NCBI RefSeq assembly: GCF_003752465.1
Contig: NZ_RKHJ01000001.1
Span: forward strand, 2,170,001-2,234,000
Source of the DNA: Agrococcus jenensis
Lineage (GTDB): Bacteria; Actinomycetota; Actinomycetes; Actinomycetales; Microbacteriaceae
Direction: 5' to 3'
DNA: 64,000 bases
The position numbers were made by a program, and so were the translations under genes. Of this stretch, positions 14,418 through 35,761 are shown piece after piece. The notes below the pieces were generated by a model that saw nothing but the letters and a program-made list of their open reading frames with translations, was not told the origin of the DNA and ran no database searches. Position 1 is the stretch's first letter. The number at the start of each line of letters is the position of its first letter.

Positions 14418-14433
14418 TTGGAAACGTTTCCAG
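14418..14433 (+). promoter_or_regulatory. LacI-family operator upstream of the catabolic operon
   Basis: TTGGAAACGTTTCCAG contains a perfect 14-bp palindrome (14419-14432) with the central CG typical of LacI/GalR operators. It lies 48 bp before the lacI start, so autoregulation of the whole operon by its own first gene is the likely meaning. Confidence 0.85.
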
Positions 14434-14480
14434 TCGCGACCACCACGGCATGAGCGATGGCGCTCGGAGCGGAGCAGGGC

Positions 14481-15497
14481 ATGGCCGGTCTCCCGACGAT
14501 CACCGCGGTCGCGCAGGTCGCCGGCGTCTCCGTCGCCACCGCCAGCCGGGCCCTGCACGGCGGTGGCGCCTCCGCCGCCACGGCCGAGCGCGTGCGCCTC
14601 GTCGCCGAGCAGCTCGGCTACCGGCCCAACGCGGTGGCGCGTGCGCTGCAGGGCGGGACGATCGGCCAGATCGCCATGATCGTGCCGGATGCCGCCAACC
14701 CCGTCTACGCCCGCATGACGAGCGCCGTCCAGCACGAGCTCGCCGCCGACGACCGCCACCTGCTCGTCGCCCAGGCGCAGGACCCGGCAGACGTCGCGGC
14801 GGCGATCGGCCGCTTCGGCCCGAGCACGATCGACGGCCTCATCGTCGTCCCGCTGCGCCCGGAGCCGCAGGTGCTCGAGGCGCTCGACGCGGCGCGCGTG
14901 CCGACCGTCGTGATCGGCTCGCTCCCGCTGACGGCGGTGCACGGGGCTGTCGGCGCCGACTCGCGCGCCGGCGTCCAGCTCGCGATCGACCACCTCGTGG
15001 CGCAGGGCGCGCAGCGCATCGCGTTCGTGAACGGCCCCGTCGACACCACGCCAGGGCGCATGCGCCTCGAGGGCTACCGCCTGGCGCTCGATGCCGCGGG
15101 GCTGGACTTCGATCCCGCGCTCGTGGTCGCCGCCGACGACTTCACGCATGCGGCCGCGCTGCCCGCCATCGACGCGCTGCTCGAGCGATCCGCGCGCTCG
15201 TTCGACGCGATCGTCGCCGCGAACGACCTCATCGCCTTCGCGGCCCTGCGGGTGCTGTCGGACGCCGGCATCGCGGTGCCGGGGGACTGCCTCGTGGTCG
15301 GCATGGACGACACCGAGCTCGCGCAGATGGCGATCCCGAGCCTCACGAGCGTCGACCTCGGCGCCGAGGCGCGCGGCACGCTCGCCGCCCAGCAGCTGCT
15401 CGCGTCGCTCCGCGGCGAAGCGGACGCCATCTCGCACGCCACCGTCGTGCCGCGCCTCGTCGTGCGCGAGTCGTCCACCAGGAGGGACCGCCCATGA
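14481..15497 (+). CDS. LacI-family transcriptional regulator
   Basis: 338 aa from ATG 14481, preferred over ATG 14457 because GGAG lies at 14471-14474 and the helix-turn-helix then begins at the usual distance. Residues about 5-25 (TITAVAQVAGVSVATASRAL) are the LacI HTH; GYRPNAVARALQ is the hinge-helix region; the rest is a periplasmic-binding-protein-like sensor ending DLGAEARGTLAAQQLL. It heads a run of nine same-strand genes and probably represses them through the palindrome at 14418-14433 until a sugar-like ligand binds. Its stop overlaps the first permease start (ATGA). Confidence 0.93.
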   Translation: MAGLPTITAVAQVAGVSVATASRALHGGGASAATAERVRLVAEQLGYRPNAVARALQGGTIGQIAMIVPDAANPVYARMTSAVQHELAADDRHLLVAQAQDPADVAAAIGRFGPSTIDGLIVVPLRPEPQVLEALDAARVPTVVIGSLPLTAVHGAVGADSRAGVQLAIDHLVAQGAQRIAFVNGPVDTTPGRMRLEGYRLALDAAGLDFDPALVVAADDFTHAAALPAIDALLERSARSFDAIVAANDLIAFAALRVLSDAGIAVPGDCLVVGMDDTELAQMAIPSLTSVDLGAEARGTLAAQQLLASLRGEADAISHATVVPRLVVRESSTRRDRP

Positions 15498-16411
15498 GCG
15501 CCGTCGATGTCGTCGTCGCCGAGCGGAGGCTGACCCGCAGATCGCGGTTCGGGCCCGAGCGCGGCGCGTGGCTGCTGTTCCTGCCCGCGATGCTGCCGAT
15601 CCTGGTCTTCAGCGTCTGGCCGCTGCTGCAGGGCATCGCGCTGGGCTTCACGAACGCGACGGCCGCGCGCAACGCGACCGTCGAGTTCACCGGGGTCGAG
15701 AACTACGTCGAGCTCGCCGGCTACGAGCTCTTCTGGAACTCGTTCGGGATCGGCCTCATCTGGGCGTTCTCGGTCACGATCATCCAGTTCTTCGCGTCGC
15801 TGAGCCTCGCGCTGCTGCTGAACGCGAACCTCTGGGGCCAGGGCATCGCGCGCACGCTCGCGCTCATCCCGTGGGCGATGCCACCGGTGATCATCGCGAT
15901 CATGTGGCGCCTCATGCTGCACCCGACCTACGGCGCGGTGAACGGCGGGCTCGGTGCGGTCGGCCTGCCCGACTCCATCAACTGGCTCGGCCAGGCCTCC
16001 ACGGCGCTCCCGGCCGCGATCGTCGTCGGCGTCTGGGCAGGCATGCCGCAGACCACCATCACGCTCCTCGCCGGCCTGCAGGGCGTGAACGCCGAGCTGC
16101 ACGAGGCGGCCCAGATTGACGGCGCCGGCACCTGGCAGCGCTTCTTCTCGGTGACGCTGCCGGCGCTGCGGCCGGTGATCATCGCGATCACCACGCTCGA
16201 CTTCATCAACAACTTCAACTCCTTCGCCCTCGTCTACGTGCTGACGGCGGGAGCGTGGGGCACGATGCTGCCGATGCTCTTCGCCTACAACGAGGCGTTC
16301 CGCTACGGCAACTTCGGGCTCGCGAGCGCGATGGGCAACGTCATCGTCATCGTGATCGCGATCTTCCTGTTCTTCTACCTGCGCTCGCAGGCGAGGGGGC
16401 GAGAGGCATGA
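15494..16411 (+). CDS. CUT1 sugar ABC transporter permease (MalF/UgpA type)
   Basis: 305 aa, overlapping lacI by 4 bp, with ribosome binding site GGAGGG. Six membrane segments; opening RGAWLLFLPAMLPILVFS typical of first CUT1 permeases. The ATPase-docking EAA loop reads EAAQIDGAGTWQRFFSVTLP (about residues 206-225). It forms a heterodimer with the next gene product. No ATP-binding subunit is encoded nearby, which is normal for actinobacteria that share one MsiK-type ATPase. The substrate is unknown. Confidence 0.93.
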   Translation: MSAVDVVVAERRLTRRSRFGPERGAWLLFLPAMLPILVFSVWPLLQGIALGFTNATAARNATVEFTGVENYVELAGYELFWNSFGIGLIWAFSVTIIQFFASLSLALLLNANLWGQGIARTLALIPWAMPPVIIAIMWRLMLHPTYGAVNGGLGAVGLPDSINWLGQASTALPAAIVVGVWAGMPQTTITLLAGLQGVNAELHEAAQIDGAGTWQRFFSVTLPALRPVIIAITTLDFINNFNSFALVYVLTAGAWGTMLPMLFAYNEAFRYGNFGLASAMGNVIVIVIAIFLFFYLRSQARGREA

Positions 16412-17247
16412 GACGACGTCGCTTGCCTCTCGGACGGGTGCTCCAGTACGTCGCGATCGTGCTGTTCATGATCTTCCTGGCGTTCCCCCTGCTGTTCCTG
16501 TTCACGACGGCCTTCAAGAGCCAGCGCGAGCTGCAGTCGCCGGATCCGCAGCTGCTGCCTGCGCAGTGGAACCTCGACAACTTCACGGCCGCGATCGACC
16601 GGGCGAACCTGATCCAGGCTGCGGGCAACAGCCTCATCGTGGCGCTCGTCACGACGCTCATCGTCGTCGCCGTCTCGCTGCCGGCCGCCTACGCGCTCGC
16701 GCGCTTCCGCACCCGGCTCCGCAAGCTCGCGACCGGCTGGATCCTGCTGTCGCAGGTCTTCCCGTTCATCCTCATCATCGTCCCGCTCTACCTGATGCTG
16801 CAGCCGCTCGGGCTCGGCAACTCGCTCGGCGGGCTCGTGGTCGTCTACGTCGTCTGGTCGCTGCCCTTCGCGCTCTGGATGCTGCAGGGCTACGTCGCGT
16901 CGATCCCCGTCGACCTCGAGGAGGCCGGCGCGATGGACGGGGCGCCGAAGTGGCGCGTGCTCGTCTCGATCGTGCTGCCGCTGCTGGCCCCCGGCCTGGT
17001 CGCGACCAGCCTGTTCGCCTTCATCGGCTCGTGGAACGAGTTCTTCTTCGCCCTCGTGCTCATCAAGGACGAGGCGTTGCAGACGCTGCCGCAGCGGCTC
17101 GCGCTCTTCGTGGGCGCCGAGGGCCAGGTGCAGCTGGGCCAGCTGGCCGCGGCATCGCTGCTCGCTGCGATCCCGAGCCTGCTGTTCTTCGCGCTCATCC
17201 AGCGTCGCCTGACGTCGGGCCTGCTCTCGGGCGCCGTCAAGGGCTGA
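16408..17247 (+). CDS. CUT1 sugar ABC transporter permease (MalG/UgpE type)
   Basis: 279 aa, overlapping the previous stop (ATGA). Six membrane helices, N-terminal VLFMIFLAFPLLFLFTTAFK, and the EAA motif EEAGAMDGAPKWRVLVSIVL followed by PLLAPGL (about residues 171-197). Partner of the upstream permease in a carbohydrate importer. A short tract of CCACCCAT repeats follows the stop before the binding-protein gene. Confidence 0.93.
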   Translation: MRRRRLPLGRVLQYVAIVLFMIFLAFPLLFLFTTAFKSQRELQSPDPQLLPAQWNLDNFTAAIDRANLIQAAGNSLIVALVTTLIVVAVSLPAAYALARFRTRLRKLATGWILLSQVFPFILIIVPLYLMLQPLGLGNSLGGLVVVYVVWSLPFALWMLQGYVASIPVDLEEAGAMDGAPKWRVLVSIVLPLLAPGLVATSLFAFIGSWNEFFFALVLIKDEALQTLPQRLALFVGAEGQVQLGQLAAASLLAAIPSLLFFALIQRRLTSGLLSGAVKG

Positions 17248-17251
17248 CGAT

Positions 17252-17282
17252 CCACCCATCCACCCATCTCCACCCCACCCAT
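17252..17282 (+). repeat. Short CCACCCAT tandem repeat
   Basis: Three exact copies of CCACCCAT (17252-17259, 17260-17267, 17275-17282) with a CTCCACC spacer fill the 49-bp gap between the second permease and the binding-protein gene, just ahead of the GAGGAGA ribosome binding site. Probably a neutral low-complexity tract, though a C-rich unstructured stretch could raise translation of the binding protein. Confidence 0.6.
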
Positions 17283-17296
17283 CCCGAGGAGACACC

Positions 17297-18595
17297 ATGC
17301 ACCGCACACCCCGCGCCGCGATGACGCTCGCGGCGGGCGCTCTGCTGCTGACCGGCTGCGCCTTCGGCGGCGGCCAGGCGCCGACCGCCACCGAGACGAC
17401 CGACCCCACCGAGGAGGTCACGCTCACCTTCCAGTCGCTCGCCTTCCAGGACGCCACGATCGCGGCGACCGAGTCGATCGTCGACTCCTGGAACTCGGAG
17501 CACCCCGAGACGCAGATCGACCTCGTCCAGGGCTCCTGGGACAACGTGCACGACCAGCTCGTGACGCAGTTCCAGGGCGGCGACGCGCCCGACATCATCC
17601 ACAACGAGGCGTCCGACATGGCGGGGTTCGCCCATGACGGCTACCTCGCCGACCTGACGCCGTTCCTCAGCGAGGAGCTGCGGGGCGACGTCTCGGAGGG
17701 CGTGTGGTCGACGGTGACCGCGAACGACCAGATCTTCGCCGCGCCGACCATCATGCAGTCGTACGTCGCGTTCGCCAATACGGCGGCGTTCGAGGCGGCC
17801 GGCGTCGAGGTGCCGACCGGCGAGTCGCTCGCCTGGGAGGACCTGCGCTCGATCGCGCAGGAGCTCACGGCCGACGGCACCTACGGCCTCGGCTGGGGCC
17901 TGAAGTCGCCGACCGCGCCGTTCATGAACCTCGCGCTCGGCGAGGAGGGCACCTTCTTCGAGGTCGACCCCGAGGGCGAGGCGACGATCGAGATCGGCGA
18001 GGGCGAGCTCGCCATCCCCGAGACGGTGCACGCGATGGCCTACGAGGACCAGTCCCTCGACCCCGTCACGCTCACGCAGACCGGCGCCGACGTGCTGCCG
18101 GGCTTCCTCGGCGGGTCGTACGGCATGTACATCGGCGGCTCGTTCCTCGCGCAGCAGATCGCCGACACCGCGCCCGAGGGCTTCGAGTGGACGGTGCTGC
18201 CGCCGCTCGCGGGCAGCGCGGGCGCCGCGCAGGGCACCTCGCCGCAGACCCTCTCGGTCTCGGCCGACTCGGAGTACGTGGATCGCGCCGCGGCGTTCAT
18301 CGACTACTACATGCAGGCCGAGAACCTCGCGGCCGTCGGCGAGGGCGACTGCCTGATCCCGACGACCGGCGCGGCGCGCGACGCGCTCGCCACCGCCACC
18401 GAGGGCCAGACCGGCTGGGCCGAGATGCTCGCCTCCGGCGCGGTGCTCGAGGCGGCGCCCTTCCAGCTCGCGGTGAACTACCCGCAGTGGAAGGACCAGT
18501 ACGCGACGCCCGCGTTCCAGCAGTACCTCTCGAACGCCATCACCCTCGAGCAGCTGTCGACGCAGCTGACCGAGGGCTGGGACTCCATCCAGTAG
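17297..18595 (+). CDS. Extracellular solute-binding lipoprotein (family 1, CUT1 importer)
   Basis: 432 aa. Signal peptide with lipobox LLTGC (cleavage before the cysteine at about residue 22), then a Thr/Pro linker and a family-1 sugar-binding fold (SWDNVHDQLVTQFQGGDAPD, YGMYIGGSFLAQQI). It captures the substrate outside the membrane and hands it to the two permeases upstream. GAGGAGA ribosome binding site 5 bp before the ATG. Unlike many actinobacterial systems, the binding protein comes after the permeases. A strong hairpin follows its stop. Substrate not deducible. Confidence 0.93.
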   Translation: MHRTPRAAMTLAAGALLLTGCAFGGGQAPTATETTDPTEEVTLTFQSLAFQDATIAATESIVDSWNSEHPETQIDLVQGSWDNVHDQLVTQFQGGDAPDIIHNEASDMAGFAHDGYLADLTPFLSEELRGDVSEGVWSTVTANDQIFAAPTIMQSYVAFANTAAFEAAGVEVPTGESLAWEDLRSIAQELTADGTYGLGWGLKSPTAPFMNLALGEEGTFFEVDPEGEATIEIGEGELAIPETVHAMAYEDQSLDPVTLTQTGADVLPGFLGGSYGMYIGGSFLAQQIADTAPEGFEWTVLPPLAGSAGAAQGTSPQTLSVSADSEYVDRAAAFIDYYMQAENLAAVGEGDCLIPTTGAARDALATATEGQTGWAEMLASGAVLEAAPFQLAVNYPQWKDQYATPAFQQYLSNAITLEQLSTQLTEGWDSIQ

Positions 18596-18602
18596 TCGCA
18601 TC

Positions 18603-18637
18603 GCCGCGCAGGGGGCGCACGCCGCCCCCTGCGCGGC
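18603..18637 (+). promoter_or_regulatory. Intercistronic hairpin after the solute-binding protein gene
   Basis: GCCGCGCAGGGGGC (18603-18616) pairs perfectly with 18624-18637 across a 7-nt loop. No T tract. Hairpins here commonly protect the abundant binding-protein mRNA and reduce read-through into the enzyme genes downstream; it could also act as a partial terminator. Confidence 0.65.
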
Positions 18638-18673
18638 ACCGACCGCGCACGCCCGCACCGATCCGGAGACGAC

Positions 18674-19825
18674 ATGACCGACGCATCCTTCGCCGACATC
18701 GCGACAGCGTCGCTCGCGGGAGCGGCCGTCGCCGACGCCCTCGGCGGCGCGGCCGAGGGCAACACCCCCGAGACGATCCAGCAGCGCTACGGCGGCACGA
18801 TCGAGGGGATCGTCCCGCCGTTCCTCGACGACTGGCGGCGCGCTCGCCCCATCGCGCCGTACCACAAGGGCGACGGCCACGTCACGGACGACACCCTCAT
18901 GACGAACCTGCTCGTCGACGTCTACGCCGAGGTGCGCAGGCACCTCACGGCGCACGACATCGCGGATCACCTGGTGCCGCGCATGATCGGGCAGGTGCAG
19001 TGGATCCCGGAGCTCGAGGCGGAGGCGCTGCCGCTGCAGCGCGTCTTCCTCGCCGAGAAGTGGCTCGTCGCCCGCCTGCACTACGGGCACATCGACCCGC
19101 GCGAGGCAGGGGTCGGCAACGTCGTCAACTGCGGCGCGACGATGTACGTCGGCCCGGTCGGGCTCGTGAACGCGGGCGACGCGCGCGGCGCCTACGCCGA
19201 GGCGATCGACATCGCGGGCGCGCACCAGTCGAGCTACGGCCGCGAGGCGGCGGGCGTCTTCGCCGCCGCCGTGGCCGCGGCCTCCGCCCCCGGCGCGACG
19301 CTCGACGGTGTGCTGGATGTGGCGATCGGCCTCGCCCGCGACGGCACCCGGGCGGCGCTCGAGGCGGTCGTCGGCGCCGGCCGTCGGCTCGACGGCTGGC
19401 GCGACGGCGGCCTCGCGGTGCTGCGCGACGCGGTGCGCCCGTTCGACACCGTCGGGGATGCCTACCGGCAGCCGTCGATGGACGCCCGGCTCCCGAGCCG
19501 CACGAAGGCGATCGAAGAGCTGCCGATCGCCCTCGGCCTGCTCGCCGCGTGCGACGGCGACTACCGCGAGGCCGTGCTCGGCGCCGTCAACTACGGGCGC
19601 GACTCCGACTCGATCGCGGTCATGGCCGGCTCCGTCGCCGGCGCGCTCGGGGGTCTCGGCAGCGTGCCCGCCGAGTGGATCGACGAGGTCGGCGCGGCAT
19701 CGCGCCTCGACCTGCGCGCGAGCGGCGCCGTGATGGCGGGCGTGGCCGCCGAGGTGTGGCGCGCCGACGACGAGCGCCACCGCGACCGGCGGAGCGCGGC
19801 GCTCGCGCTGGGCCTCGAGGCGTGA
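18674..19825 (+). CDS. ADP-ribosylglycohydrolase-family enzyme (first of two)
   Basis: 383 aa. The fold hydrolyses N- or O-glycosidic bonds to ribose-like sugars with two Mg ions. Visible are the N-terminal GAAVADALGGAAEG (about residues 16-29), the metal motif TDDT at 71-74, and the second metal cluster YGRDSDSIAVMAGS near 307-320, so the metal centre looks intact. The middle carries NCGATMYVGPVGLVNAGD, typical of the subfamily found beside sugar transporters rather than dinitrogenase-reductase hydrolases. Start has GGAG about 9 bp upstream. The stop overlaps the GTG of the second paralogue. Likely acts on an imported glycoside. Confidence 0.88.
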   Translation: MTDASFADIATASLAGAAVADALGGAAEGNTPETIQQRYGGTIEGIVPPFLDDWRRARPIAPYHKGDGHVTDDTLMTNLLVDVYAEVRRHLTAHDIADHLVPRMIGQVQWIPELEAEALPLQRVFLAEKWLVARLHYGHIDPREAGVGNVVNCGATMYVGPVGLVNAGDARGAYAEAIDIAGAHQSSYGREAAGVFAAAVAAASAPGATLDGVLDVAIGLARDGTRAALEAVVGAGRRLDGWRDGGLAVLRDAVRPFDTVGDAYRQPSMDARLPSRTKAIEELPIALGLLAACDGDYREAVLGAVNYGRDSDSIAVMAGSVAGALGGLGSVPAEWIDEVGAASRLDLRASGAVMAGVAAEVWRADDERHRDRRSAALALGLEA

Positions 19826-21186
19826 GCGCGGGCCCGATGCTGCGGCTGAGCTGGACCCAGCCCGAGGACCTCGCCGCGCACGCCCTCGTCGCCGCTCGGC
19901 TCGACGGGCTCGACGTCTCGGCCCTCGAGGACGAGCTCGTCGCCGCCGGCGGCTCGCTCACCGCACCGGTGAGCGGCGCCACCCCCGAACGCGCCGACGA
20001 GGGGCTGCGCGCGACCGCCGCCCGCGTCACCGAGGCGGCGACCGCACTGCCGCGGCCCGCCTCGCTCCTCGAGCGGGAGCCCGACGCCTGGGCCTCGATG
20101 GCGCTCGAGCCGCCGACCGTGCCGGTCGCCGACGGCCTCGACGACCGCCTCCGTGGCGCGTGGCTCGGCCGCGCCATCGGCTGCCTCGTGGGCAAGCCGG
20201 TCGAGAAGATCCCGCGCGACGGCATCCGCGCGATCGCCGAGTCCACCGGCCGCTGGCCGGTGCGCGGCTACTTCACCGAGCAGGGGCTCGACCCGGAGAT
20301 CGCGGCGCGCTGGCCGTGGAACCGGCGCTCGCGGCCGACGAGCCTCGACGGCGTCATCGACGGCATGCCCGAGGACGACGACCTCAACTTCGCGATCCTC
20401 GCGCTCGTGGCGCAGGAGCGCGCGACCGCAGGCGAGCTCACCACCAGCGCGATCGCGCAGCTCTGGCTCGACCAGCTGCCCGCCGGCCGTGTCTTCACGG
20501 CCGAGCGCATCGCCTACCGCAACCTGCTCTCGGGCGACGAGCCCGAGGTCGCCGCGGTGCGCGGCAACCCGTTCGTCGACTGGATCGGCGCGCTCATCCG
20601 CGCAGACGCCTACGGCTGGGCGCATCCGGGCGATCCGGCCCCGGCGGCCGAGCTCGCCGTCACGGATGCGCGGCTCACGCACCGTCGCGCCGGCGTCCAC
20701 GGGGCAGCGTTCATGGCAGGCGCCGCAGCGGTGGCCGTCGCCGGAGCCGGCGTGGAGGCAGCGGTCGAGGCGGGGCTCGCCTGCGTGCCGAGCGGCTCGC
20801 GGCTCGCCGATGCCGTGCGGCTCGGGCAGTCGCTCGCCGCGAGCGACCGCGACGACGAGGCATGCCTCGACGAGCTGCACCGCGCCTACGGGCACCTGCA
20901 CTGGGTGCACGTGCTGGGCAACACCGCGCTCCTCGTGCTCGCTGCGCTCCGCGGTCGCGATGACTTCGCGCGCGGCGTCGGGCTCGCGGTCGCGGGCGGC
21001 TGGGACACCGACTCCGTCGGCGCAAGCGTCGGGGGACTGCTCGGTGCGGCCGGCACCGCGGCCATCCCCGCGGACCTGGCCGCGCCCATCCGCGGCGTCT
21101 ACCGCACGACGCTCGCCGGCTTCGACGGCGTGCGCTTCGACGACCTCGCCGCACGCACCCTCGCGCTCGCGGAGGCGGGCTCGTGA
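19822..21186 (+). CDS. ADP-ribosylglycohydrolase-family protein, extended and divergent (second)
   Basis: 454 aa from GTG 19822, overlapping the previous stop by 4 bp. The first 110 residues (MLRLSWTQPEDLAAHALVAA...) are an extra domain not in the first enzyme; the fold begins at RGAWLGRAIGCLVGKPVEKI (about 111-130). The first metal motif is changed to PEDDDLN (about 183-189) in place of TDDT, while the second, GGWDTDSVGA (about 392-401), is kept. A related pattern is seen in family members of unknown substrate next to sugar transporters. The changed motif may alter metal use or substrate. Coupled by overlap to the next gene. Confidence 0.85.
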   Translation: MSAGPMLRLSWTQPEDLAAHALVAARLDGLDVSALEDELVAAGGSLTAPVSGATPERADEGLRATAARVTEAATALPRPASLLEREPDAWASMALEPPTVPVADGLDDRLRGAWLGRAIGCLVGKPVEKIPRDGIRAIAESTGRWPVRGYFTEQGLDPEIAARWPWNRRSRPTSLDGVIDGMPEDDDLNFAILALVAQERATAGELTTSAIAQLWLDQLPAGRVFTAERIAYRNLLSGDEPEVAAVRGNPFVDWIGALIRADAYGWAHPGDPAPAAELAVTDARLTHRRAGVHGAAFMAGAAAVAVAGAGVEAAVEAGLACVPSGSRLADAVRLGQSLAASDRDDEACLDELHRAYGHLHWVHVLGNTALLVLAALRGRDDFARGVGLAVAGGWDTDSVGASVGGLLGAAGTAAIPADLAAPIRGVYRTTLAGFDGVRFDDLAARTLALAEAGS

Positions 21187-23192
21187 CCATCGACCCCGAC
21201 GAGGCGCCCACGAACGCGTTCGACCCGCTCGTGCCGCGCCCGATCGACCTGCCGACCGCCGTGCCGCTGCCCGCGCTCGGCGACGAGCGGCTGGCCGACG
21301 CGGCGTTCGACATCGCGAAGATCCTCGCCGCGCCGGACGACGCCGCGCAGTGGCCCGCCTGGCGCGAGGAGCTCGCCGCCCTCGCCGCCGCCGCGCGGTC
21401 GCGGCTCGCGCACGACGACGCCGCCTACGACGCCGTCTCGTGGGCTGCGCGCTGCCGCGTCGCCGCGCAGATCTGGCTCTGGGACGAGCGGCTGTGGGAC
21501 TGGCAGGAGCGGCGCTTCACGCCCGATCGACTGCTCGCCGCCTACGACGACCTCGGCGGCCTCGACGGGCTCGTGCTCTGGCACACCTACCCGTGCATCG
21601 GCATCGACGAGCGCAACCAGTTCGACTGGTACCGCGACGTGCCGCGCCTCGCCGCGCTCGTCGCCGACCTGCACGCGGCCGGGGTGCGCGTCTTCCTCGA
21701 CTACAACCCGTGGGACACCGGCACGCGGCGCGAGACGGATGCGTCGGGCCGCGAGCGCTCGGACGGCGAGTCGCTGCGGCTCGTCGCCGACGAGCTCGGC
21801 GCCGACGGCGTCTTCCTCGACACGCTGAAGCAGGCCGACCCGGCGTTCCTCGCGGCGGTGGGCGGTGACCGGCCGCTGGCGCTCGAGGGTGAGTCACGAG
21901 CGCCGAACGAGCGACTGCGCGACCACGTGCTGTCGTGGTCGCAGTGGTTCGCCGACTCGCGCGCGCCGGGCGTGCAGCGCGCGCGGCTCGTCGAGCGCCG
22001 GCACATGCTGCACGGCGTGCGGCGGTGGAACCGCTCGCATGCGGAGGAGCTGCAGACGGCGTGGATGAACGGCACGGGCGTGCTCGTCTGGGATGCCGTC
22101 TTCGGCGTGTGGGTGGGCTGGAGCGCGCGCGATCGCGCGACGCTGCGCACCATCTCCCGGGTGCAGCGCGCGTGCCACGAGCTGCTCGAGCAGGGGGAGT
22201 GGGCACCGCTCGCGGGTGCGACGGCGGAGGCGGCGGAGCTCGGCGTCCACGGCACGACCTGGACGCTCGGCGACGTCACGCTCGTGACGCTCGTGCACCG
22301 CGGCGACGAGCCGGTCACGGGGCGCTTCCTCGCGCCGGTCGAGGGCGCGCTGTGGGACCTGGGACGGGGAGCTGCGACCGACGGCGAGCTGACGATCCCC
22401 GCGCACGGCATCGCCGGGGTGCTCGCCGTGCGCGGCGAGGCACCCGCATGGCTGCCGGGGCTGCTCGAGGCGGCGGCCGCCGATCCTGCCCATGACGACC
22501 CGGCGTGGGCGGATGCCGCGTTCCCCGCTCGCGCGACCGAGCGCATCCGCGTGCCGAGGTCGAGCGCTGCGCCGCCCGCGGATGCCGTGCTGGTGCCGGC
22601 AGGCGCGCACGAGCTGCGGGTGCGGTGGCGGCGGCGTGAGACGGGCCTCTACGGCGAGGCGCCGTACGTCGAGGAGTGGAAGCCGCTGCCGCCGCGGCTG
22701 CACGACGAGCGCGAGTTCGAGGTGCGCGCCGAGCTCGGCGCGGTCGCGATCGCGCGCCGGGAGGTGAGCGTGGCCGAGTGGAACGCCGCCGCCCGCGATG
22801 CGGGGCTCGAGCCGCGAACGGGGGCGCCCGACGCGCCCGTGACGCACGTCGACCTCGACGACGCGCGCCGCTTCGCCGCCGCCGTCGGCGCGCGGCTGCC
22901 GACGGACCACGAGTGGCAGGTCGCGGGCGCCGCGCTGGAGCGGCGCAGCCCGCGGGTGTGGAACTGGACGGAGAGCGAGATGACCGACGGCATCACCCGG
23001 AGGACGATCCTCAAGGGCGGCAGCGAGCGCGCCGTGACCGGCTCGGACTGGTACGCCGACGGCGGCCCGCAACCGCCGGAGCGGTCGCTCGCGTGGCTGC
23101 GCACGGGCATCGACCGCTCGAGCGCGATCGGCTTCCGCCTGGCCTGGGATCTCCGGTCCGACGTCGACCACGGCACGGGGGATCCGCGATGA
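21183..23192 (+). CDS. Barrel hydrolase-like domain fused to a SUMF1/FGE-like domain
   Basis: 669 aa, 4-bp overlap at both ends. Residues about 90-400 look like a TIM-barrel glycosidase-type domain: GLVLWHTYPCIGIDERNQFD, AGVRVFLDYNPWDTG, LGADGVFLDTLKQADP, with a beta-sandwich-like continuation to about 460. Residues about 465-665 match the formylglycine-generating-enzyme/SUMF1 fold: RREVSVAEWNAA, RLPTDHEWQVAGA, VWNWTESEMTDG, ILKGGSERA and the closing IGFRLAWD. No cysteine is present in the SUMF1 part, so it is unlikely to be a sulfatase-activating oxidase and more likely a carbohydrate- or ligand-binding variant. The barrel assignment is an inference from motif spacing. Confidence 0.7.
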   Translation: MTIDPDEAPTNAFDPLVPRPIDLPTAVPLPALGDERLADAAFDIAKILAAPDDAAQWPAWREELAALAAAARSRLAHDDAAYDAVSWAARCRVAAQIWLWDERLWDWQERRFTPDRLLAAYDDLGGLDGLVLWHTYPCIGIDERNQFDWYRDVPRLAALVADLHAAGVRVFLDYNPWDTGTRRETDASGRERSDGESLRLVADELGADGVFLDTLKQADPAFLAAVGGDRPLALEGESRAPNERLRDHVLSWSQWFADSRAPGVQRARLVERRHMLHGVRRWNRSHAEELQTAWMNGTGVLVWDAVFGVWVGWSARDRATLRTISRVQRACHELLEQGEWAPLAGATAEAAELGVHGTTWTLGDVTLVTLVHRGDEPVTGRFLAPVEGALWDLGRGAATDGELTIPAHGIAGVLAVRGEAPAWLPGLLEAAAADPAHDDPAWADAAFPARATERIRVPRSSAAPPADAVLVPAGAHELRVRWRRRETGLYGEAPYVEEWKPLPPRLHDEREFEVRAELGAVAIARREVSVAEWNAAARDAGLEPRTGAPDAPVTHVDLDDARRFAAAVGARLPTDHEWQVAGAALERRSPRVWNWTESEMTDGITRRTILKGGSERAVTGSDWYADGGPQPPERSLAWLRTGIDRSSAIGFRLAWDLRSDVDHGTGDPR

Positions 23193-24376
23193 CCGGCCCG
23201 CTCGACGGCGTGCGCGTGCTCGACGTCTCGACGCTCTTCGCCGGCCCGCTCGCGGCGACGTTCCTCGGCGACTTCGGCGCCGACGTGATCAAGGTCGAGC
23301 ATCCGCGGCGACCGGACGCGTCGCGAGGGCACGGCCCCGCCAAGGACGGCGTGAACCTGTGGTGGAAGACGCTCGGGCGCGGCAAGCGCACGACGACGCT
23401 CGACCTCTCGCAGCCGGAGGGCGCGGCGCTGCTGCTCGAGCTCGCGCGCGGCGCCGACGTGCTGATCGAGAACTTCCGGCCCGGCACCCTCGAGCGGTGG
23501 GGACTCGAGCCGGCACAGCTGCACGAGGCGAACCCGGCGCTCGTGATCGCGCGCGTCACCGCCTTCGGGCAGTCGGGTCCGATGGCGCGCCAGCCCGGCT
23601 TCGGCTCGATCGCCGAGGCGATGAGCGGGTTCGCCGCGATCACGGGCGAGCCGGACGGGCCGCCCATCCTGCCGCCCTTCGGCCTCGCCGACGGCATCAC
23701 CGCGCTCGCGACGGCCTACGCCTGCGCGATCGCGCTGCGGCATTCGGAGCGCACGGGCGAGGGGCAGGTGATCGACATGGCGATCATCGAACCGATCCTC
23801 ATGCTGCTCGGCGGGCAGATCACCGCGTTCGACCAGCTCGGGCTCGTGCAGCCGCGGGTCGGCAACCGATCGGTCAACAACGCGCCGCGCAACGTCTACC
23901 GCACCGCCGACGGCCGCTGGGTGGCGGTGTCGACGTCGTCGCAGTCGGTCGCCGAGCGCGTCATGGCGCTCGTCGGTCGGCCCGACGTGATCGCCGAGCC
24001 CTGGTTCGCCTCGGGCCGCACGCGCGTCGAGCACGTCGACGAGCTCGACGCGGCGGTCGGCGGCTGGATCGCCGAGCGCACGCTCGCCGAGGTCGTCGGG
24101 GAGTTCGAGCGGGTCGAGGCGGCCATCGGCGTCGTCGACGACATCTCGGGCGTGATGGCGAACCCGCAGTACGCGTCGCTCGGTACGATCCTGCCCATCC
24201 ACGACGCCGAGCTGGGGGAGATCCGCATGCAGAACGTGCTGTTCCGGATGTCGGCGACGCCCGGCGAGGTGCGGCACACCGGCAGGCGGCACGGCGAGGA
24301 CACCGACGCGGTGCTCGCCGAGCTCGGGATCACGCCCGAGCAGGCTCGGGCGCTGCGGGACCGGGGGATCGTGTGA
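23189..24376 (+). CDS. CaiB/BaiF family (type III) CoA-transferase
   Basis: 395 aa from ATG 23189, overlapping the previous stop. Family III CoA-transferases move CoA between carboxylic acids. Opening GVRVLDVSTLFAGPLAATFLGDFGADVIKVEHP (first 34 residues; only the core LDVSTLFAGP and GADVIKVEHP quoted as motifs), ENFRPGTLERWGL, and the catalytic aspartate in GQVIDMAI near residue 196. In this operon it would activate a carboxylic acid released from the imported glycoside for cleavage by the next gene product. The acid is unknown. Confidence 0.9.
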   Translation: MTGPLDGVRVLDVSTLFAGPLAATFLGDFGADVIKVEHPRRPDASRGHGPAKDGVNLWWKTLGRGKRTTTLDLSQPEGAALLLELARGADVLIENFRPGTLERWGLEPAQLHEANPALVIARVTAFGQSGPMARQPGFGSIAEAMSGFAAITGEPDGPPILPPFGLADGITALATAYACAIALRHSERTGEGQVIDMAIIEPILMLLGGQITAFDQLGLVQPRVGNRSVNNAPRNVYRTADGRWVAVSTSSQSVAERVMALVGRPDVIAEPWFASGRTRVEHVDELDAAVGGWIAERTLAEVVGEFERVEAAIGVVDDISGVMANPQYASLGTILPIHDAELGEIRMQNVLFRMSATPGEVRHTGRRHGEDTDAVLAELGITPEQARALRDRGIV

Positions 24377-25152
24377 CCGTCGCGCTGTACGTGCCGGGGG
24401 ATCGGCCCGACCGCTTCGGCAAGGCCGTCGAGTCGGGCGCGGATGTCGTCATCCTCGACCTCGAGGATGCGGTGGCGCACGACCGCAAGGCGGTCGCGCG
24501 GGAGGCGGTCGACGAGTTCCTGCGGCAGCGCGGCCCGATCGGGCTGCAGGTGCGGATCGGCGGGCTGGACGACCTCGAGATGCTCGCGGCGCACGAGGTG
24601 GAGCTGCGGGTGCCGAAGGTGCGCGGCGCTGCCGACCTCGACGCGGTCGTCGATCGACTCGATCTCGACTCCCGACGGCTGCACGCGATCGTCGAGGATG
24701 CGGTGGGCGTCGCGCGGCTCGACGAGATCGCCGCGCACGCCGCTGTCGCCTCGGTCGCGCTGGGGGAATCCGACCTGCGGAGCGACCTCGGCGCGACGAG
24801 CCCGGCGATGATCGAGCACCTGCGCATCCTGCTCGTGCTCGCCGCGAGGGGCGCGGGACTGCCGGCGCCGCTCATGTCGGTCTACCCGGCGATCGCCGAC
24901 CTCGACGGGCTCGAGGCCGACTGCCGGGCGGGGGCGGCGCTCGGCTTCGGCGGGCGCACGGCGGTGCACCCGAAGCAGATCGAGGTCATCCGCCGGGCGT
25001 TCGCGCCGAGCGAGGACGATGTCGCCTGGGCGGAGGGGGTGCTCGCGGCGCTCGCTGAGGGCGTCGGCGTCACGACGCTCGCCGACGGCCAGATGGTCGA
25101 CGAGGCGATGCGGGCGCGCGCGGAGAGGATCCTCGCCCGCCGGGACGGGTGA
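24373..25152 (+). CDS. HpcH/HpaI aldolase/citrate lyase beta (CitE)-type lyase, copy 1
   Basis: 259 aa from GTG 24373 (4-bp overlap with the CoA-transferase stop). CitE-like enzymes cleave or form acyl-CoA thioesters such as citramalyl-CoA, malyl-CoA or HMG-CoA. Motifs: [28 protein letters not shown] near residues 25-40 (acidic metal ligands), VEDAVGV, ALGESDLRSDLG and GGRTAVHPKQIEVI. A paralogue lies at 35758-36624. The pair with a CoA-transferase suggests activation then retro-aldol cleavage, as in itaconate/citramalate dissimilation, but no hydratase is in this operon. Confidence 0.9.
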   Translation: MTVALYVPGDRPDRFGKAVESGADVVILDLEDAVAHDRKAVAREAVDEFLRQRGPIGLQVRIGGLDDLEMLAAHEVELRVPKVRGAADLDAVVDRLDLDSRRLHAIVEDAVGVARLDEIAAHAAVASVALGESDLRSDLGATSPAMIEHLRILLVLAARGAGLPAPLMSVYPAIADLDGLEADCRAGAALGFGGRTAVHPKQIEVIRRAFAPSEDDVAWAEGVLAALAEGVGVTTLADGQMVDEAMRARAERILARRDG

Positions 25153-28120: not shown

Positions 28121-29239
28121 GTGTCGATCACCGTGCCAGCACCTGACCCCGCGCTCGCCGTCGGCCTCGACTGCCCGCTGCGCGTGCTCGACCTCGACGG
28201 CTCCCGCTTGCCGGATGCGCTGCTCGATCCGCACCTGACCGACATCGACGAGTCGGCCCTCACGAACCTCTACGTCGACATGGTGCGCGTGCGCCGGCTC
28301 GACACCGAGGCGTTCGCCCTCACCCGCCAGGGCCACCTCGTGCTCTGGCCGCCGCTGCTCGGCCAGGAGGCCGCGCAAGTGGGCCCGGCCCGCGCGCTGC
28401 GCACCGAGGACTGGGTCTTCGGCTCCTACCGCGAGCACGCGTTCGCCCTGCTCAAGGGCGTCGACCTCGCCGAGTTCGCCAACGTCTGGAAGGCCTACGC
28501 GCACGGCGGCTGGGACCCGCAGGAGATCCGGATGGCGCCGGCGCAGATCATCATCGGCGCCCAGAGCCTCCACGCGACCGGCTTCGCGATGGCCTCGAAG
28601 CTCGACCGCTCCGACGACGTCGCGCTCGCCTGCTTCGGCGACGGCGCGACGAGCGAGGGCGACGTCAACGAGGCGCTGGTGTGGGCATCCGCGTTCCAGG
28701 CGCCGGTCGTCTTCCTCTGCCAGAACAACCAGTACGCGATCTCCGAGCCCGTGCGCGTGCAGTCGGGCACGCCGCTCGCGCTGCGCCCGACCGGCTTCGG
28801 CATCCCGTCGATGCGCGTCGACGGCAACGACGTGCTCGCGATGCACGCGGCCGCGCGCATCGCCTTCGAGCGCGCCCGCTCCGGCGGCGGCCCGACCTTC
28901 ATCGAGGCCGTCACCTACCGCCGCGGCCCGCACACCACGACCGACGACCCCAAGCGCTACCGCGACGAGGCCGAGCTCGAGGAGTGGACCGCGAAGGACC
29001 CGATCGACCGCGTCGAGCGCGCGCTCGAGCGGATGGGCGCCAACATGGAGGCCGTCCGCGCCGAGGCGAAGATCCGCGCCGACGAGCTCGCCAAGGAGCT
29101 CCGCGCCGCCGCCGAGCACGCCGTCGCGCCGCACGCCGACGCGATGTTCGAGCACGTCTACGACCAGCCGACGAAGCGCATCCAGCGCCAGCAGGCCGAG
29201 CGCCGCGCGTTCGCCGCATCCATCGAGGGGAACCGATGA
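28121..29239 (+). CDS. bkdA: Branched-chain 2-oxoacid dehydrogenase E1 alpha
   Basis: 372 aa from GTG 28121 with a strong GAGGAGG site upstream. Thiamine-diphosphate-dependent decarboxylation of branched-chain 2-oxoacids, with the beta subunit. TPP motif GDGATSEGDVNEALVWAS starts near residue 172 and ends with QNNQYAIS; FGSYREHAFALLKGVD and RRGPHTTTDDPKRY are typical of BCKDH/PDH alpha chains in actinobacteria. First gene of an eight-gene operon closely resembling Mycobacterium bkdABC with accA1/accD1. Coupled to the beta subunit by ATGA overlap. Confidence 0.93.
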   Translation: MSITVPAPDPALAVGLDCPLRVLDLDGSRLPDALLDPHLTDIDESALTNLYVDMVRVRRLDTEAFALTRQGHLVLWPPLLGQEAAQVGPARALRTEDWVFGSYREHAFALLKGVDLAEFANVWKAYAHGGWDPQEIRMAPAQIIIGAQSLHATGFAMASKLDRSDDVALACFGDGATSEGDVNEALVWASAFQAPVVFLCQNNQYAISEPVRVQSGTPLALRPTGFGIPSMRVDGNDVLAMHAAARIAFERARSGGGPTFIEAVTYRRGPHTTTDDPKRYRDEAELEEWTAKDPIDRVERALERMGANMEAVRAEAKIRADELAKELRAAAEHAVAPHADAMFEHVYDQPTKRIQRQQAERRAFAASIEGNR

Positions 29240-30273
29240 CCACCGAGACGCTCACGCTCGCGAAGGCCGTCAACGCCGCGCTCGCCGACTCGCTCGAGGG
29301 GGACGACCGCGTGCTGCTCATGGGCGAGGACATCGGCAAGCTCGGCGGCGTCTTCCGCGTCACCGACGGCCTGCAGGCGCGCTTCGGCGAGGACCGCGTG
29401 ATCGACGCGCCGCTCGCCGAGTCGGCGATCATCGGCACCGCGATCGGCATGGGCTACCGCGGCTTCCGCGTCGTCGCCGAGATCCAGTTCGACGGCTTCA
29501 TCTACCCCGCCTTCGACCAGATCGTCGCGCAGGTGGCGAAGCTCCACTTCCGCTCGAAGGGCCGCGTCAAGGTGCCCCTCACCATCCGCGTGCCGTTCGG
29601 CGGCGCGATCGGCTCGGTCGAGCACCACTCCGAGTCGCCCGAGGCCTACTTCGCGCACACCGCGGGCCTCCGCGTGGTGACCGCGTCGACGCCGCAGGAG
29701 GCGTACTCCACGCTGCGCGCCGCGATCGCGAGCGACGACCCGGTGCTCTTCTTCGAGCCGAAGGGCAAGTACTACACGAAGGGCGAGGTCGACCGCTCGA
29801 TCGTCCGCGACCTCGACACCGCCAACATCGTCGCCGCCGGCCGCGACGTGACCGTCGCCGCCTACGGCCCGACGGTCGAGACGGCGCTCCGCGCCGCGAT
29901 CGCCGCCGCCGACGAGGGCATCGAGATCGAGGTCATCGACCTGCGCTCGATCTCGCCGCTCGACGTCGACACCGTCGTCGAGTCGGTGCGCCGCACCGGC
30001 CGGCTCGTCGTCGCGCACGAGGCGCCCGGCGAGGTCTCGGTCTCGAGCGAGCTCATCACCTCCGTCGTCGAGCGCGCCTTCTCGAGCCTCGAGGCTGCGC
30101 CCGAGCGCGTCACCGGCTACGACACGCCCTACCCGCCGTCGGCGATCGAGCACGACTACCTGCCGAGCCTCGACCGCATCCTCGACGCCGTCGACCGCAC
30201 GCTCGGCCGCCGCAGCTCGCGCGACGAGCTCGACTCGGCATCCGCACTCGCCACGGCAGGAGCCGCCCGATGA
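29236..30273 (+). CDS. bkdB: Branched-chain 2-oxoacid dehydrogenase E1 beta
   Basis: 345 aa from ATG 29236, overlapping the alpha stop. Transketolase-like beta subunit: VLLMGEDIGKLGGVFRVTDGL, DAPLAESAIIGTAIGMGYRG, IRVPFGGAIGSVEHHSESPE, and the C-terminal DLRSISPLDVDTVVESVRRTGRLVV with HEA motif. Together with E1 alpha it makes the heterotetrameric E1 of the complex. Coupled to E2. Confidence 0.95.
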   Translation: MTTETLTLAKAVNAALADSLEGDDRVLLMGEDIGKLGGVFRVTDGLQARFGEDRVIDAPLAESAIIGTAIGMGYRGFRVVAEIQFDGFIYPAFDQIVAQVAKLHFRSKGRVKVPLTIRVPFGGAIGSVEHHSESPEAYFAHTAGLRVVTASTPQEAYSTLRAAIASDDPVLFFEPKGKYYTKGEVDRSIVRDLDTANIVAAGRDVTVAAYGPTVETALRAAIAAADEGIEIEVIDLRSISPLDVDTVVESVRRTGRLVVAHEAPGEVSVSSELITSVVERAFSSLEAAPERVTGYDTPYPPSAIEHDYLPSLDRILDAVDRTLGRRSSRDELDSASALATAGAAR

Positions 30274-31595
30274 AGACGTTCCTGCTGCCCGACCTCGGTG
30301 AGGGCCTCACCGAGAGCGAGGTCGTCTCCTGGCGCGTCGCCGAGGGCGACACCGTCGAGCTCAACCAGCCGCTCGCCGACATCGAGACGGCGAAGGCCGT
30401 CGTCGAGCTGCCGAGCCCCTACGAGGGCGTCATCACCAAGCTGCACGCCGCAGAGGGCGAGACCGTCGCCGTCGGCGCGCCGCTCATCGAGTTCGACGTC
30501 GACGGCGCGGGCGGTGCACCGGCAGCGGATGCGCCGGCGGCTGACGAGCCGATCGCGGAGGAACCAGTGCCGTCGCCCGAGGCCGGCCCGGTCGCGACCC
30601 CCGACGAGACGATCGAGGAGACGCCCGCGGCGATCGAGCCGGAGGCGAAGCCCGAGAAGGTCTCGGTGCTCGTCGGCTCGATCACGGTGCACGGCGGCAA
30701 GCCCGTGCGCGCCAAGCGCACCTGGGACGTCGAGCCCTTCTCGCGCACCGAGCGACCCGCCGAGCGGCGCGCGAACCGCGCCATGCCGCCCGTGCGGAAG
30801 CTCGCGAAGGAGCGCGGCATCGACCTGCAGTCGGTGCGGCCATCGGGCGCCGACGGGCTCGTCACGCGCGCCGACCTCGAGTCGCACGGCAGCGCATCCG
30901 CGGCACCGGCCACCGCTGCCGCGCCTGCGTCCACCCGCGAGAAGGTGACGGGGCTCCGCAAGCACACCGCTGCCGCGATGTCGCAGTCGGCGCTGACGGT
31001 GCCGCACGCCGCGACCTTCCACCAGGTCGATGTCACCGAGACGCTCGCGCTCGCCCGCTCGGGCGACGCGTCGTTCCTCGCGCTCGCGTGCCGGGCGATC
31101 CTGCTCGCCGCGAAGCGCTGGCCCGACGTCACGTCGTCGTTCCACGCCGACACCAACGAGCTCGAGCGCTTCGCGCACGTCAACCTCGGCATCGCCGTCT
31201 CGACCGAGCGCGGCCTCGTGGTCGCCTCGATCGACGAGGCGGAGGCCATGGATGCGCTCGCGCTCACCGCTGCGATCAAGGACCGCGCCACGCGCGCCCG
31301 CGACAACGCGCTGTCGATGGCCGAGCTCACGTCGTCGAACATCACCGTCTCGAACGTCGGCGTCTTCGGCGTCGACGGCGGCATCCCGATCCTCAACCCT
31401 GGGGAGTCGGTCATCCTCGCGATCGGCGCGGTGCGGAAGATGCCGTGGGCCCACGACGGCGAGATCGTGCTGCGCGACGTCTGCACGGTCACCGTCTCGT
31501 TCGACCACCGGGTGCTCGACGGGCGCGAGGCGGCCGGCTTCCTCGCCGATGTCGCCGCGGTGCTCGAGCGTCCCAGCCTCGCACTGGCACGGTAG
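30270..31595 (+). CDS. bkdC: Branched-chain 2-oxoacid dehydrogenase E2 (lipoamide acyltransferase)
   Basis: 441 aa. One lipoyl domain (residues 1-75; lipoyl lysine K42 in [13 protein letters not shown]), a Glu/Pro/Ala linker, a peripheral subunit-binding domain near 170-210 ([19 protein letters not shown]), and the catalytic acyltransferase domain to the end with [17 protein letters not shown] (catalytic His near residue 412). It transfers the acyl group to CoA and forms the core of the complex. No E3 (lipoamide dehydrogenase) gene is present in the window, so a shared one is needed. Confidence 0.95.
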
Positions 31596-31599
31596 GGGC

Positions 31600-33291
31600 A
31601 TGCACCGGCTCCCGACCCACGTCGATCCCGGCGGCGACGCCGCCCGCACGAACCGCGCCGCGATGGAGGCGCTCGTCGCTGAGCTGCGCGAGCGGCTCGA
31701 CCGCGTCGCGCTCGGCGGACCCGAGGCGTCGCGCGAGCGGCACGTCGCGCGCGGCAAGCTGTTGGCCCGCGACCGCATCGACGCGCTGCTCGACCCGGGC
31801 AGCCCGTTCCTCGAGGTCGCGCCGCTCGCGGCGTGGGGCGTCTACGGCAAGGACGTCGATGGCACCGGCGGTCAGGATGCGCCGTCGGCGGGCGTCGTCG
31901 CCGGCATCGGCCTCGTGCACGGCCGACACGTGATGGTGATCGCGAACGACGCGACCGTCAAGGGCGGCACCTACTTCCCGCTCACGGTGAAGAAGCACCT
32001 GCGCGCGCAGCAGATCGCTCGCGAGAACCGCCTGCCCTGCATCGCGCTCGTCGATTCGGGCGGCGCCTTCCTGCCGATGCAGGACGAGGTCTTCCCCGAC
32101 CGCGAGCACTTCGGCCGCATCTTCTTCAACCAGGCGCAGATGTCGGCCCTCGGGATCCCGCAGCTCGCGGCCGTCATGGGCTCGTCGACCGCCGGCGGCG
32201 CCTACGTGCCGGCGATGAGCGACGAGACGGTGATCGTGCGCGACCAGGGCACGATCTTCCTCGGCGGCCCGCCGCTCGTGAAGGCGGCGACCGGTGAGGT
32301 GATCGACGCCGAGTCGCTCGGCGGCGGCGTGCTGCACGCCGAGATCTCGGGCGTCGTCGACCACCTCGCCGACGACGACGAGCACGCGCTCGAGATCCTG
32401 CGCGACATGGTCGAGGCGCTGCCCGACAGCGACCGCGGCCTCCCCTGCGCCGTGCCGTCTTCGACGCGGTCGTTCGGGGTGCTCTCGGCCACGCCGCTCG
32501 CCGCCGACGACGACGACGAGATCGCGCCTGCCGTCGATCCCGCGACGCTCTACGACGCCATCCCGCCCGACCTGCAGACGCCCTACGACGCCCGCGAGAT
32601 CATCGCGCGCATCGTGGACCGCAGCGCGTTCCACGAGTTCAAGGCCGGCTACGGCGAGACGCTCGTCACCGGCTTCGCCGAGCTGCACGGGCACACGGTC
32701 GGCATCATCGCGAACAACGGCGTGCTCTTCTCGGAGTCGGCGATGAAGGGCGCGCACTTCATCGAGCTGTGCGACCAGCGCGGCGTGCCGCTCGTCTTCC
32801 TGCAGAACATCACCGGCTTCATGGTCGGCTCGGAGGCCGAGCGCGGCGGCATCGCCAAGCACGGCGCGAAGATGGTCACCGCGGTGGCGACGACGCGCGT
32901 GCCGAAGCTCACGGTCGTCGTCGGCGGCTCGTTCGGCGCCGGCACCTACTCGATGTGCGGCCGCGCCTACGACCCCAGGTTCCTGTGGCTGTGGCCGAAC
33001 GCGCGTGTGAGCGTCATGGGCGGGCCGCAGGCCGCATCCGTGCTCTCCACCGTCAAGCGCGAGCAGATCGAAGGCGCGGGCGACGAGTGGTCGGCCGAGG
33101 CGCAGGCCGACTTCGAGCGCCCGGTGCGCGAGCAGTACGAGACCCAGGGCAACCCCTACTACGCCTCCGCCAGGCTCTGGGACGACGGCGTCATCGACCC
33201 CGCAGACACGCGCCGGATCCTCGGGATGGCGCTCGACGTCGTCACCGCGGTGCCGCTGCCCGAGCCGCGCTTCGGCGTGTTCAGGATGTGA
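31600..33291 (+). CDS. accD1: Acyl-CoA carboxylase beta subunit (methylcrotonyl-CoA carboxylase type)
   Basis: 563 aa from ATG 31600, 4 bp after the E2 stop region. Carboxyltransferase half of a biotin-dependent carboxylase: [22 protein letters not shown] at the start, [54 protein letters not shown], and [18 protein letters not shown]. These match MCC beta/Mtb AccD1 rather than propionyl-CoA carboxylase. With the alpha chain it carboxylates 3-methylcrotonyl-CoA in leucine breakdown. Confidence 0.92.
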
Positions 33292-33296
33292 GCGCC

Positions 33297-35227
<1,931 letters not shown>

Positions 35228-35231
<4 letters not shown>

Positions 35232-35761
35232 CCGACGAGACGACCGCGGCAGCGCCCGCGACCGAGCCCGCGCCCGAGCCCGCCGCGCGGCGCATCACCC
35301 AGCGAGGGCTCTGGTTCGACGAGCTCGAGGAGGGCGTGGTCTACGAGCACCGTCCCGGCCGCACGATGACCGAGACCGACAACGTGCTCTTCACGACGCT
35401 GACGATGAACACGCAACCGCTGCACCTCGACCGCGCGTACAGCGCGACGACCGAGTTCGGCGAGCCGCTCGTCAACTCGATGCACACGCTCGCGACCATG
35501 GTCGGCCTGTCGGTCGGGCAGCTCACCCAGGGCACGATCGTCGCGAACCTCGGGTTCAGCGAGGTGACGTTCCCGGCGCCGGTGCGCCACGGCGACACGA
35601 TCTACTGCGAGACGCGCGTGCTCGAGAAGCGCGTGTCCCGGTCGCGGCCGGGCCAGGGCATCGCCACCTTCGAGCACCTCGCGCGCAACCAGCACGGCGA
35701 GGTCGTCGCGAAGGCCGTGCGGCAGGTGCTCATGCAGGCCGACCCGGAGGGGGCGTCGTGA
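35228..35761 (+). CDS. MaoC-family hydratase
   Basis: 177 aa, ATGA overlap with the carboxylase. Hotdog-fold enoyl-CoA hydratase: [45 protein letters not shown] (catalytic Asp/His region split here: TETDNVLFT and MNTQPLHLD), [36 protein letters not shown]. The equivalent gene beside Mtb citE is associated with itaconyl-CoA/3-methylglutaconyl-CoA hydration, so here it is the likely methylglutaconyl-CoA hydratase of leucine breakdown. Sits between carboxylase and CitE lyase, in pathway order. Confidence 0.9.

Follow-up and report, generated by a model that had tools for sequence, protein, structure and literature searches.

In Escherichia coli K-12, the repressor-controlled yegTUV genes (GgaR regulon) join a transporter, an ARH-family gene and a PfkB kinase through 4-bp overlaps; the functions of all three are given as unassigned (PMC10819704). 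Itaconate and citramalate are degraded by a three-step pathway (Ict-Ich-Ccl, RipABC; named in PMC12290011). In such degradation, CoA activation is followed by a CitE-type lyase. Here, we report a nine-gene operon from Agrococcus jenensis (contig NZ_RKHJ01000001.1, positions 2,170,001 to 2,234,000; the window, 64,000 nucleotides) that contains elements of both: a LacI-type regulator, an ABC sugar importer, two ARH-family hydrolases (ADPRH1 and ADPRH2), a barrel-SUMF1 fusion protein, a CoA-transferase (CaiB) and an acyl-CoA lyase (CitE), all on the + strand (14457-25152, by open reading frame and Pfam reading of the window).

The yegTUV genes are the most similar known arrangement found, but they have an MFS nucleoside-type transporter, a GntR regulator and a single hydrolase, and no barrel, CoA-transferase or lyase lies in the annotated 10 kb read. 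Unlike the Ict-Ich-Ccl/RipABC pathway, the operon has no hydratase and is coupled to glycoside uptake. The same adjacent CoA-transferase/lyase pair also occurs in free acid operons of Alphaproteobacteria (Aureimonas, Shinella, Thalassospira) and Rhodococcus (R. opacus B4), but these have tricarboxylate, SLC13 or iron-type ABC importers, and no ARH-family gene or ribokinase is annotated alongside. No description of the operon as a pathway was found among the titles and abstract openings listed from the open literature, in keeping with a preliminary description of this DNA made from the sequence, which had recognized no described pathway. The best reading is that the genes form a sugar-catabolic operon in which ARH-family enzymes would have a metabolic role.

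Conservation of the gene set

The operon is a real block, conserved across Actinomycetota beyond chance, and is found in many soil and plant bacteria. We compared 41 homologous loci, 22 from a pattern scan (one genome per species) and 19 from a class search with the barrel protein (394 genomes, 20 strong matches including the window's own; the other 19 were read); the two sets may have species in common. ADPRH1, ADPRH2, CaiB and CitE accompany the barrel in 37/41 loci (19/22 and 18/19), and all nine families are present in 30/41 (15/22 and 15/19), counts in which some misses are contig ends and some matches are partial. The preliminary description had suggested a co-occurrence check and named scattered homologues as evidence against a unit; scattering was not seen in most loci. 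Gene order is constant except in L017, L019 and three loci with an intervening extra ARH-like match (L061, L062 and L064). The nearest named locus in the one-genome-per-species scan is that of Agrococcus sediminis (79-93% protein identity).

Barrel matches occur in 42 of the 394 class genomes, 20 of them strong (E under 1e-80) and 22 only within residues 431-631, the SUMF1 end. Searches with ADPRH1 (E up to 1e-20) gave 10 matches in 396 phylum genomes, the window's own and nine from one genus. Beyond the phylum, Ensifer and Sinorhizobium plasmids carry LacI, importer, ADPRH1, ADPRH2, UgpC, CaiB and CitE genes, and a Pelagibacterium metagenome-assembled genome matches this set within the reach of its contig stretch, with a barrel downstream; its ADPRH1 (E up to 1e-30) matched only the query genome itself among 289 genomes of its class. 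Proteins that fuse PF03747 to barrel-SUMF1 also exist.

Several loci have features of their own. L073 is a divergent full cassette with no ribokinase match, in a small 1.8-Mb genome of the same class. In Micromonospora, a PF00756 esterase of 727 aa, which has a hydrophobic N terminus and contains beta-propeller repeats, is inserted between barrel and CaiB (L007:11911-14094), and several other Micromonospora loci have gaps of similar size. The cassette of Ensifer PDNC004 has an 813-aa protein without a Pfam match 3' of CitE (L124:14391-16832).

Nine Streptomyces-type loci (genus inferred) contain ADPRH3, a fourth weak ARH-like match, ADPRH1, ADPRH2, CaiB and CitE, with RbsK in 6/9 and no match to LacI, ABC importer or barrel in the stretches read. 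The only two with listed genes, L100 and L103, lie near what we take to be trpB, and L100 also near a presumed lgt. These loci very probably correspond to S. coelicolor SCO2028-SCO2031, in print as "uncharacterised DraG/ARH homologues" and ADP-ribosylation enzymes (PMC9411070 and PMC5087735); the Streptomyces genes so named probably belong to this kind of cassette.

Predicted catabolic route

On balance, we think it probable that the operon is repressed by LacI and serves the breakdown of a hydroxydi- or tricarboxylic acid joined to ribose. The route is drawn from the genes present, their conservation as one block, the folds and conserved residues of the proteins, the linkage to ribokinase and the kinship of CaiB-CitE to pairs in acid operons; from these, we infer ribose and a hydroxydicarboxylate as products, and the order of steps. 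The CUT1 ABC importer, with an ATPase encoded elsewhere, would take up the conjugate, the barrel-SUMF1 protein would probably remove or handle a second (capping) sugar or linkage, and ADPRH1 and ADPRH2 would release ribose from the aglycone in a metal-dependent manner. Ribose would be phosphorylated by a ribokinase, here perhaps the product of a PfkB gene elsewhere in the genome, and enter the pentose pathway. CaiB would load CoA onto the malate/citramalate-type hydroxydi- or tricarboxylic acid, and the CitE-type lyase would cleave the acyl-CoA, giving a 2-oxo acid together with acetyl-CoA or one of its homologues. The preliminary description had proposed that an imported glycoside of an organic acid is hydrolyzed, activated with CoA and cleaved; this scheme is the one best supported by the comparative evidence. 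The presence of ribokinase in most relatives, the kin of CaiB-CitE beside di- and tricarboxylate transporters, the GH13-like barrel and the lack of a conserved cysteine in the SUMF1 domain are additions to that description.

Both hydrolases have the PF03747 domain and are assigned the ARH fold, and they are the only PF03747 matches in the host genome (2.96-Mb chromosome). ADPRH1 (18674-19825) carries the acidic motifs TDDT and RDSDS, and TDDTL and GRDxDS are each found in 52/53 matched rows; ADPRH2 (19822-21186; PF03747, 147 bits), which has an N-terminal extension of ~110 aa, carries EDDDL and WDTDS, with EDDDL in 52/53 rows and GWDTD in 51/53. We take these paired acidic motifs to be the metal site of ARH enzymes. 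Known ARH relatives bind ribose via two Mg ions, and solved relatives with ligands carry ADP-ribose or analogues (structure titles).

The preliminary description had noted that there is no sugar kinase, which is true of the window's operon, but a ribokinase-like PfkB gene lies inside the cassette in 31/41 loci (15/22 and 16/19), nearly always between ADPRH2 and barrel. For the one such kinase tested, that of Agreia (L004:9055-9954), which has the PfkB domain, the closest solved kin are ribokinases (E 2e-62, against 1e-27 for sulfofructose kinase), and a PfkB gene elsewhere on the window's chromosome is 41% identical to the Agreia copy. The sugar released would most likely be ribose, because a ribokinase is present in most cassettes and known ARH enzymes bind ribose.

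CaiB (23189-24376) is a family III (CaiB/BaiF) CoA-transferase in which PF02515 (CoA_transf_3, 376 bits) spans residues 5-372 of 395. CitE (24373-25152) is a CitE/HpcH-type lyase (PF03328, HpcH_HpaI) with R61, E108 and D134 in 42/42 rows and D243 in 41 (1 gap), presumably the functional Arg, Glu, Asp and C-terminal Asp of CitE/HpcH lyases; its nearest solved relative is 8khl, a "probable acyl-CoA lyase beta chain". Twelve free CaiB loci (no cassette) were annotated. Genes for tripartite tricarboxylate transporters accompany four of the pairs, SLC13 and PrpF accompany one, and iron-type ABC importers, a hydroxyacid dehydrogenase and RraA accompany three. A related CoA-transferase on a Haloferax gibbonsii plasmid (L145) is beside HMG-CoA lyase-type and 3-isopropylmalate dehydratase genes, which suggest an acid pathway of some kind.

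Trees of CaiB and of CitE place the rhizobial cassette copies among the free alphaproteobacterial pairs and the actinobacterial copies in another clade. A single clade for all cassette copies was rejected (p-AU 2.9e-6 for CaiB and 1e-47 for CitE) in tests run after a first look at the tree, with L135 counted as a free locus (no ADPRH match in 19 kb), three long-branch rows left out for CaiB (L133, L141 and L145) and the CitE row of L144 being the higher-scoring copy, not the one beside CaiB. The linkage between cassette and acid pair may either have formed twice or have been broken many times; had it formed twice, this would argue strongly that the acid consumed by the CaiB-CitE pair is the one freed by the hydrolases. 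Because the rhizobial CaiB-CitE lineage is akin to pairs beside tricarboxylate transporters, a malate-type hydroxy acid is the probable aglycone.

Several observations weigh against the proposed route. To our knowledge, no abundant ribosyl hydroxydicarboxylate is known. Ribokinase is missing from the window's operon and from 10/41 loci, importer and barrel are missing in 9/9 Streptomyces-type loci, and L072 has a full-length strong barrel match without any partner gene. Glu201 of CaiB, present in 12/12 cassette rows, occupies a column that we take to align with the catalytic Asp (Frc Asp169), where the two solved relatives 4ed9 and 5yit have Asp and 9br7 has Ser. CitE scores far below the curated RipC cut-off (NCBIfam NF038242; 156 versus 375 bits). 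Four of the 12 free CaiB loci are in other settings: that of R. gordoniae has PrpD and MFS genes, that of Bradyrhizobium has genes for sulfate-type transport and TcuA, the third is the Haloferax locus, and the CaiB of Sphingomonas (L143) has aromatic-ring dioxygenase genes beside it and no adjacent lyase. Neither CaiB nor CitE lies beside the cassettes of Phyllobacterium, Pseudochrobactrum, Nitratireductor, Agrobacterium and Nonomuraea; the acid branch is therefore separable, with the ribose half able to function by itself or the acid half located elsewhere.

The fusion protein (21183-23192) combines a (beta/alpha)8 barrel of GH13-like fold (clan GH-H) and a beta-domain with a SUMF1-like domain. 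The barrel has an Asp after strand 4 and a Glu at strand 5, positions and roles that we assume to be those of the GH13 catalytic pair. The protein has no GH13 or other GH match in Pfam, only FGE-sulfatase (PF03781) near its C terminus at E up to 0.001, and no glycosidase match was given for any of the three family members scanned; no signal peptide was seen by eye. Of 7994 candidates scored, 1418 are homologues at E up to 0.001, and the SUMF1 domain alone may account for many of these. Formylglycine-generating enzyme (SUMF1) has catalytic cysteines in its FGE domain. In residues 440-659 of the family, no column has Cys in more than 4/49 rows, and the window's sequence has none; with no conserved Cys and a partial Pfam match, a role as a formylglycine or ergothioneine-type enzyme was set aside. 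There is no sulfatase gene in the operon.

The neighborhoods of distant barrel genes bear on another substrate class. Genes for GH127 (beta-L-arabinofuranosidase-type) adjoin the barrel genes of a Sphingopyxis plasmid and of a Phycisphaerae contig (30% and 33% identity, respectively), GH28 and GH36 genes are within the same 25 kb as a Spirosoma barrel gene, and one Micromonospora cassette has the PF00756 esterase gene inserted. The hydrolases might accordingly act on an arabinose- or apiose-type furanoside or pentoside of a plant or algal glycan, with PfkB serving that pentose and the acid being a glycan substituent. We regard this as unlikely, given that the tested cassette kinase matches true ribokinases much more closely than it does other named kinds of PfkB protein and that solved ARH relatives hold ADP-ribose or analogues.

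An N-riboside (modified nucleoside) with a carboxylate on its base, from which ribose is recovered and a base-derived acid passes to CaiB and CitE, is a distinctly improbable substrate. Some known ARH enzymes cleave N-ribosyl bonds, and in yegTUV a predicted nucleoside transporter is encoded together with the ARH-family protein and the PfkB kinase, but the importer here is of the CUT1 sugar type and no base-catabolic gene is inside the cassettes whose genes were listed. That ADPRH1 and ADPRH2 are de-ADP-ribosylation enzymes regulating the operon's other proteins or NAD metabolism would fit their PF03747 family and ARH fold and the DraG/ARH classification of their Streptomyces homologues (PMC9411070 and PMC5087735), but is very hard to credit when both genes overlap catabolic genes and are linked to ribokinase, Streptomyces-type clusters hold up to four ARH-like genes with CaiB and CitE, and SCO2028 and SCO2030 were inactive on one substrate, uracil-alpha-ADP-ribose (PMC13036486).

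Further candidate substrates considered were bacillithiol-type glycosyl malates, methanopterin, alpha-ribazole, nicotinamide riboside, poly-ADP-ribose, arabinan, RG-II sugars, HMG glycosides and thuringiensin; they were dropped for lack of evidence, and none is known to bring together ribose, uptake by a CUT1 importer and an acid of malate type for which a CoA lyase would be needed.

The ribose-linked acid route would give a testable metabolic role to ARH/DraG-family genes discussed as ADP-ribosylation erasers, and it predicts that bacteria of soil and plants feed on a natural product containing ribose, whose identity would also give a function to the glycosidase-like barrel family. More tentatively, Actinomycetota and Rhizobiales might share ARH-fold metabolic ribosidases for a ribosyl-hydroxydicarboxylate common in the environment, having been joined on two or more occasions to CoA-transferase/lyase pairs that differ in ancestry. 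In that case, the large ARH sets of Streptomyces would serve chiefly in nutrition and not as ADP-ribose erasers, and the GH13-like barrel with its lectin-like SUMF1 domain would represent a glycosidase family not described before.

Operon layout and regulation

The preliminary description had all nine genes, lacI to CitE, on one strand, and coordinates and Pfam families agree. The LacI-family repressor (14457-15497, 346 aa; PF00356 and PF13377) is followed by two CUT1-type permeases (both PF00528), one UgpA/MalF-like (15494-16411) and one GlcU/MalG-like (16408-17247), likenesses below cut-offs, and by a lipoprotein sugar-type solute-binding protein (SBP) (17297-18595; PF01547, SBP_bac_1) with the lipobox LLLTGC read directly.

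Stop and start codons overlap by 4 bp at six of eight junctions (ATGA at 15494, 16408 and 23189; GTGA at 19822, 21183 and 24373), not seven as had been counted. The other two junctions are gaps of 49 bp (permease 2/SBP) and 78 bp (SBP/ADPRH1), the latter holding a strong 15-bp hairpin (18603-18637, + strand; -42.5 kcal/mol, z -3.06). A single transcript, earlier held to be strongly implied, is plausible from the overlaps, but the gaps and hairpin temper that claim. Because the hairpin is strong but without a T-tract, expression may step down 3' of SBP while one transcript stays plausible; the hairpin is a possible mRNA stabilizer or attenuator.

A perfect palindrome resembling a LacI-type operator, TGGAAACGTTTCCA (14419-14432, no strand assigned), lies 24 bp 5' of lacI, and the start of the unit at 14418 in the preliminary description falls at it. 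It is exact in the window, L001/L120 and L055, and in a scan without a shuffle control it was found with up to two mismatches upstream of lacI in 16/30 loci having lacI. Pattern scans gave no sigma-70 promoters or terminators and are uninformative at 72% GC.

The genomic site in Agrococcus

A CaiB orthologue is present in 6/24 Agrococcus genomes, and the block is at one site in all six, with lacI adjoining rsfS in 6/6 (G1047 by coordinates). A VOC-domain gene lies 3' of CitE, at most ~75 bp from the matched part in L001, L002 and L121, ~0.75 kb away in the window and L118, and 6.8 kb away in L117. Among the 18 genomes without the block, 17 have rsfS and were read, and 13 show both flanking genes, spaced 66-870 bp apart in 10 and separated by 6.8-7.0 kb of other DNA in three. 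The site is near-empty in the 10, and therefore the nine genes were gained or lost together. The rsfS|VOC site may be a small island hot spot; the three block-free loci with other DNA are L151, L152 and L155, and in L117 the 6.8 kb between CitE and the VOC gene lies beside the operon.

The window has a second CitE/HpcH-family gene (35758-36624; PF03328, 101 bits). In its vicinity are E1/E2 dehydrogenase genes (28121-31595) and a gene of biotin carboxylase type (frame 32769-35231), perhaps a branched-chain acyl-CoA pathway. Eight Agrococcus loci without the cassette have CitE-like matches (37-39%) about equally far away.

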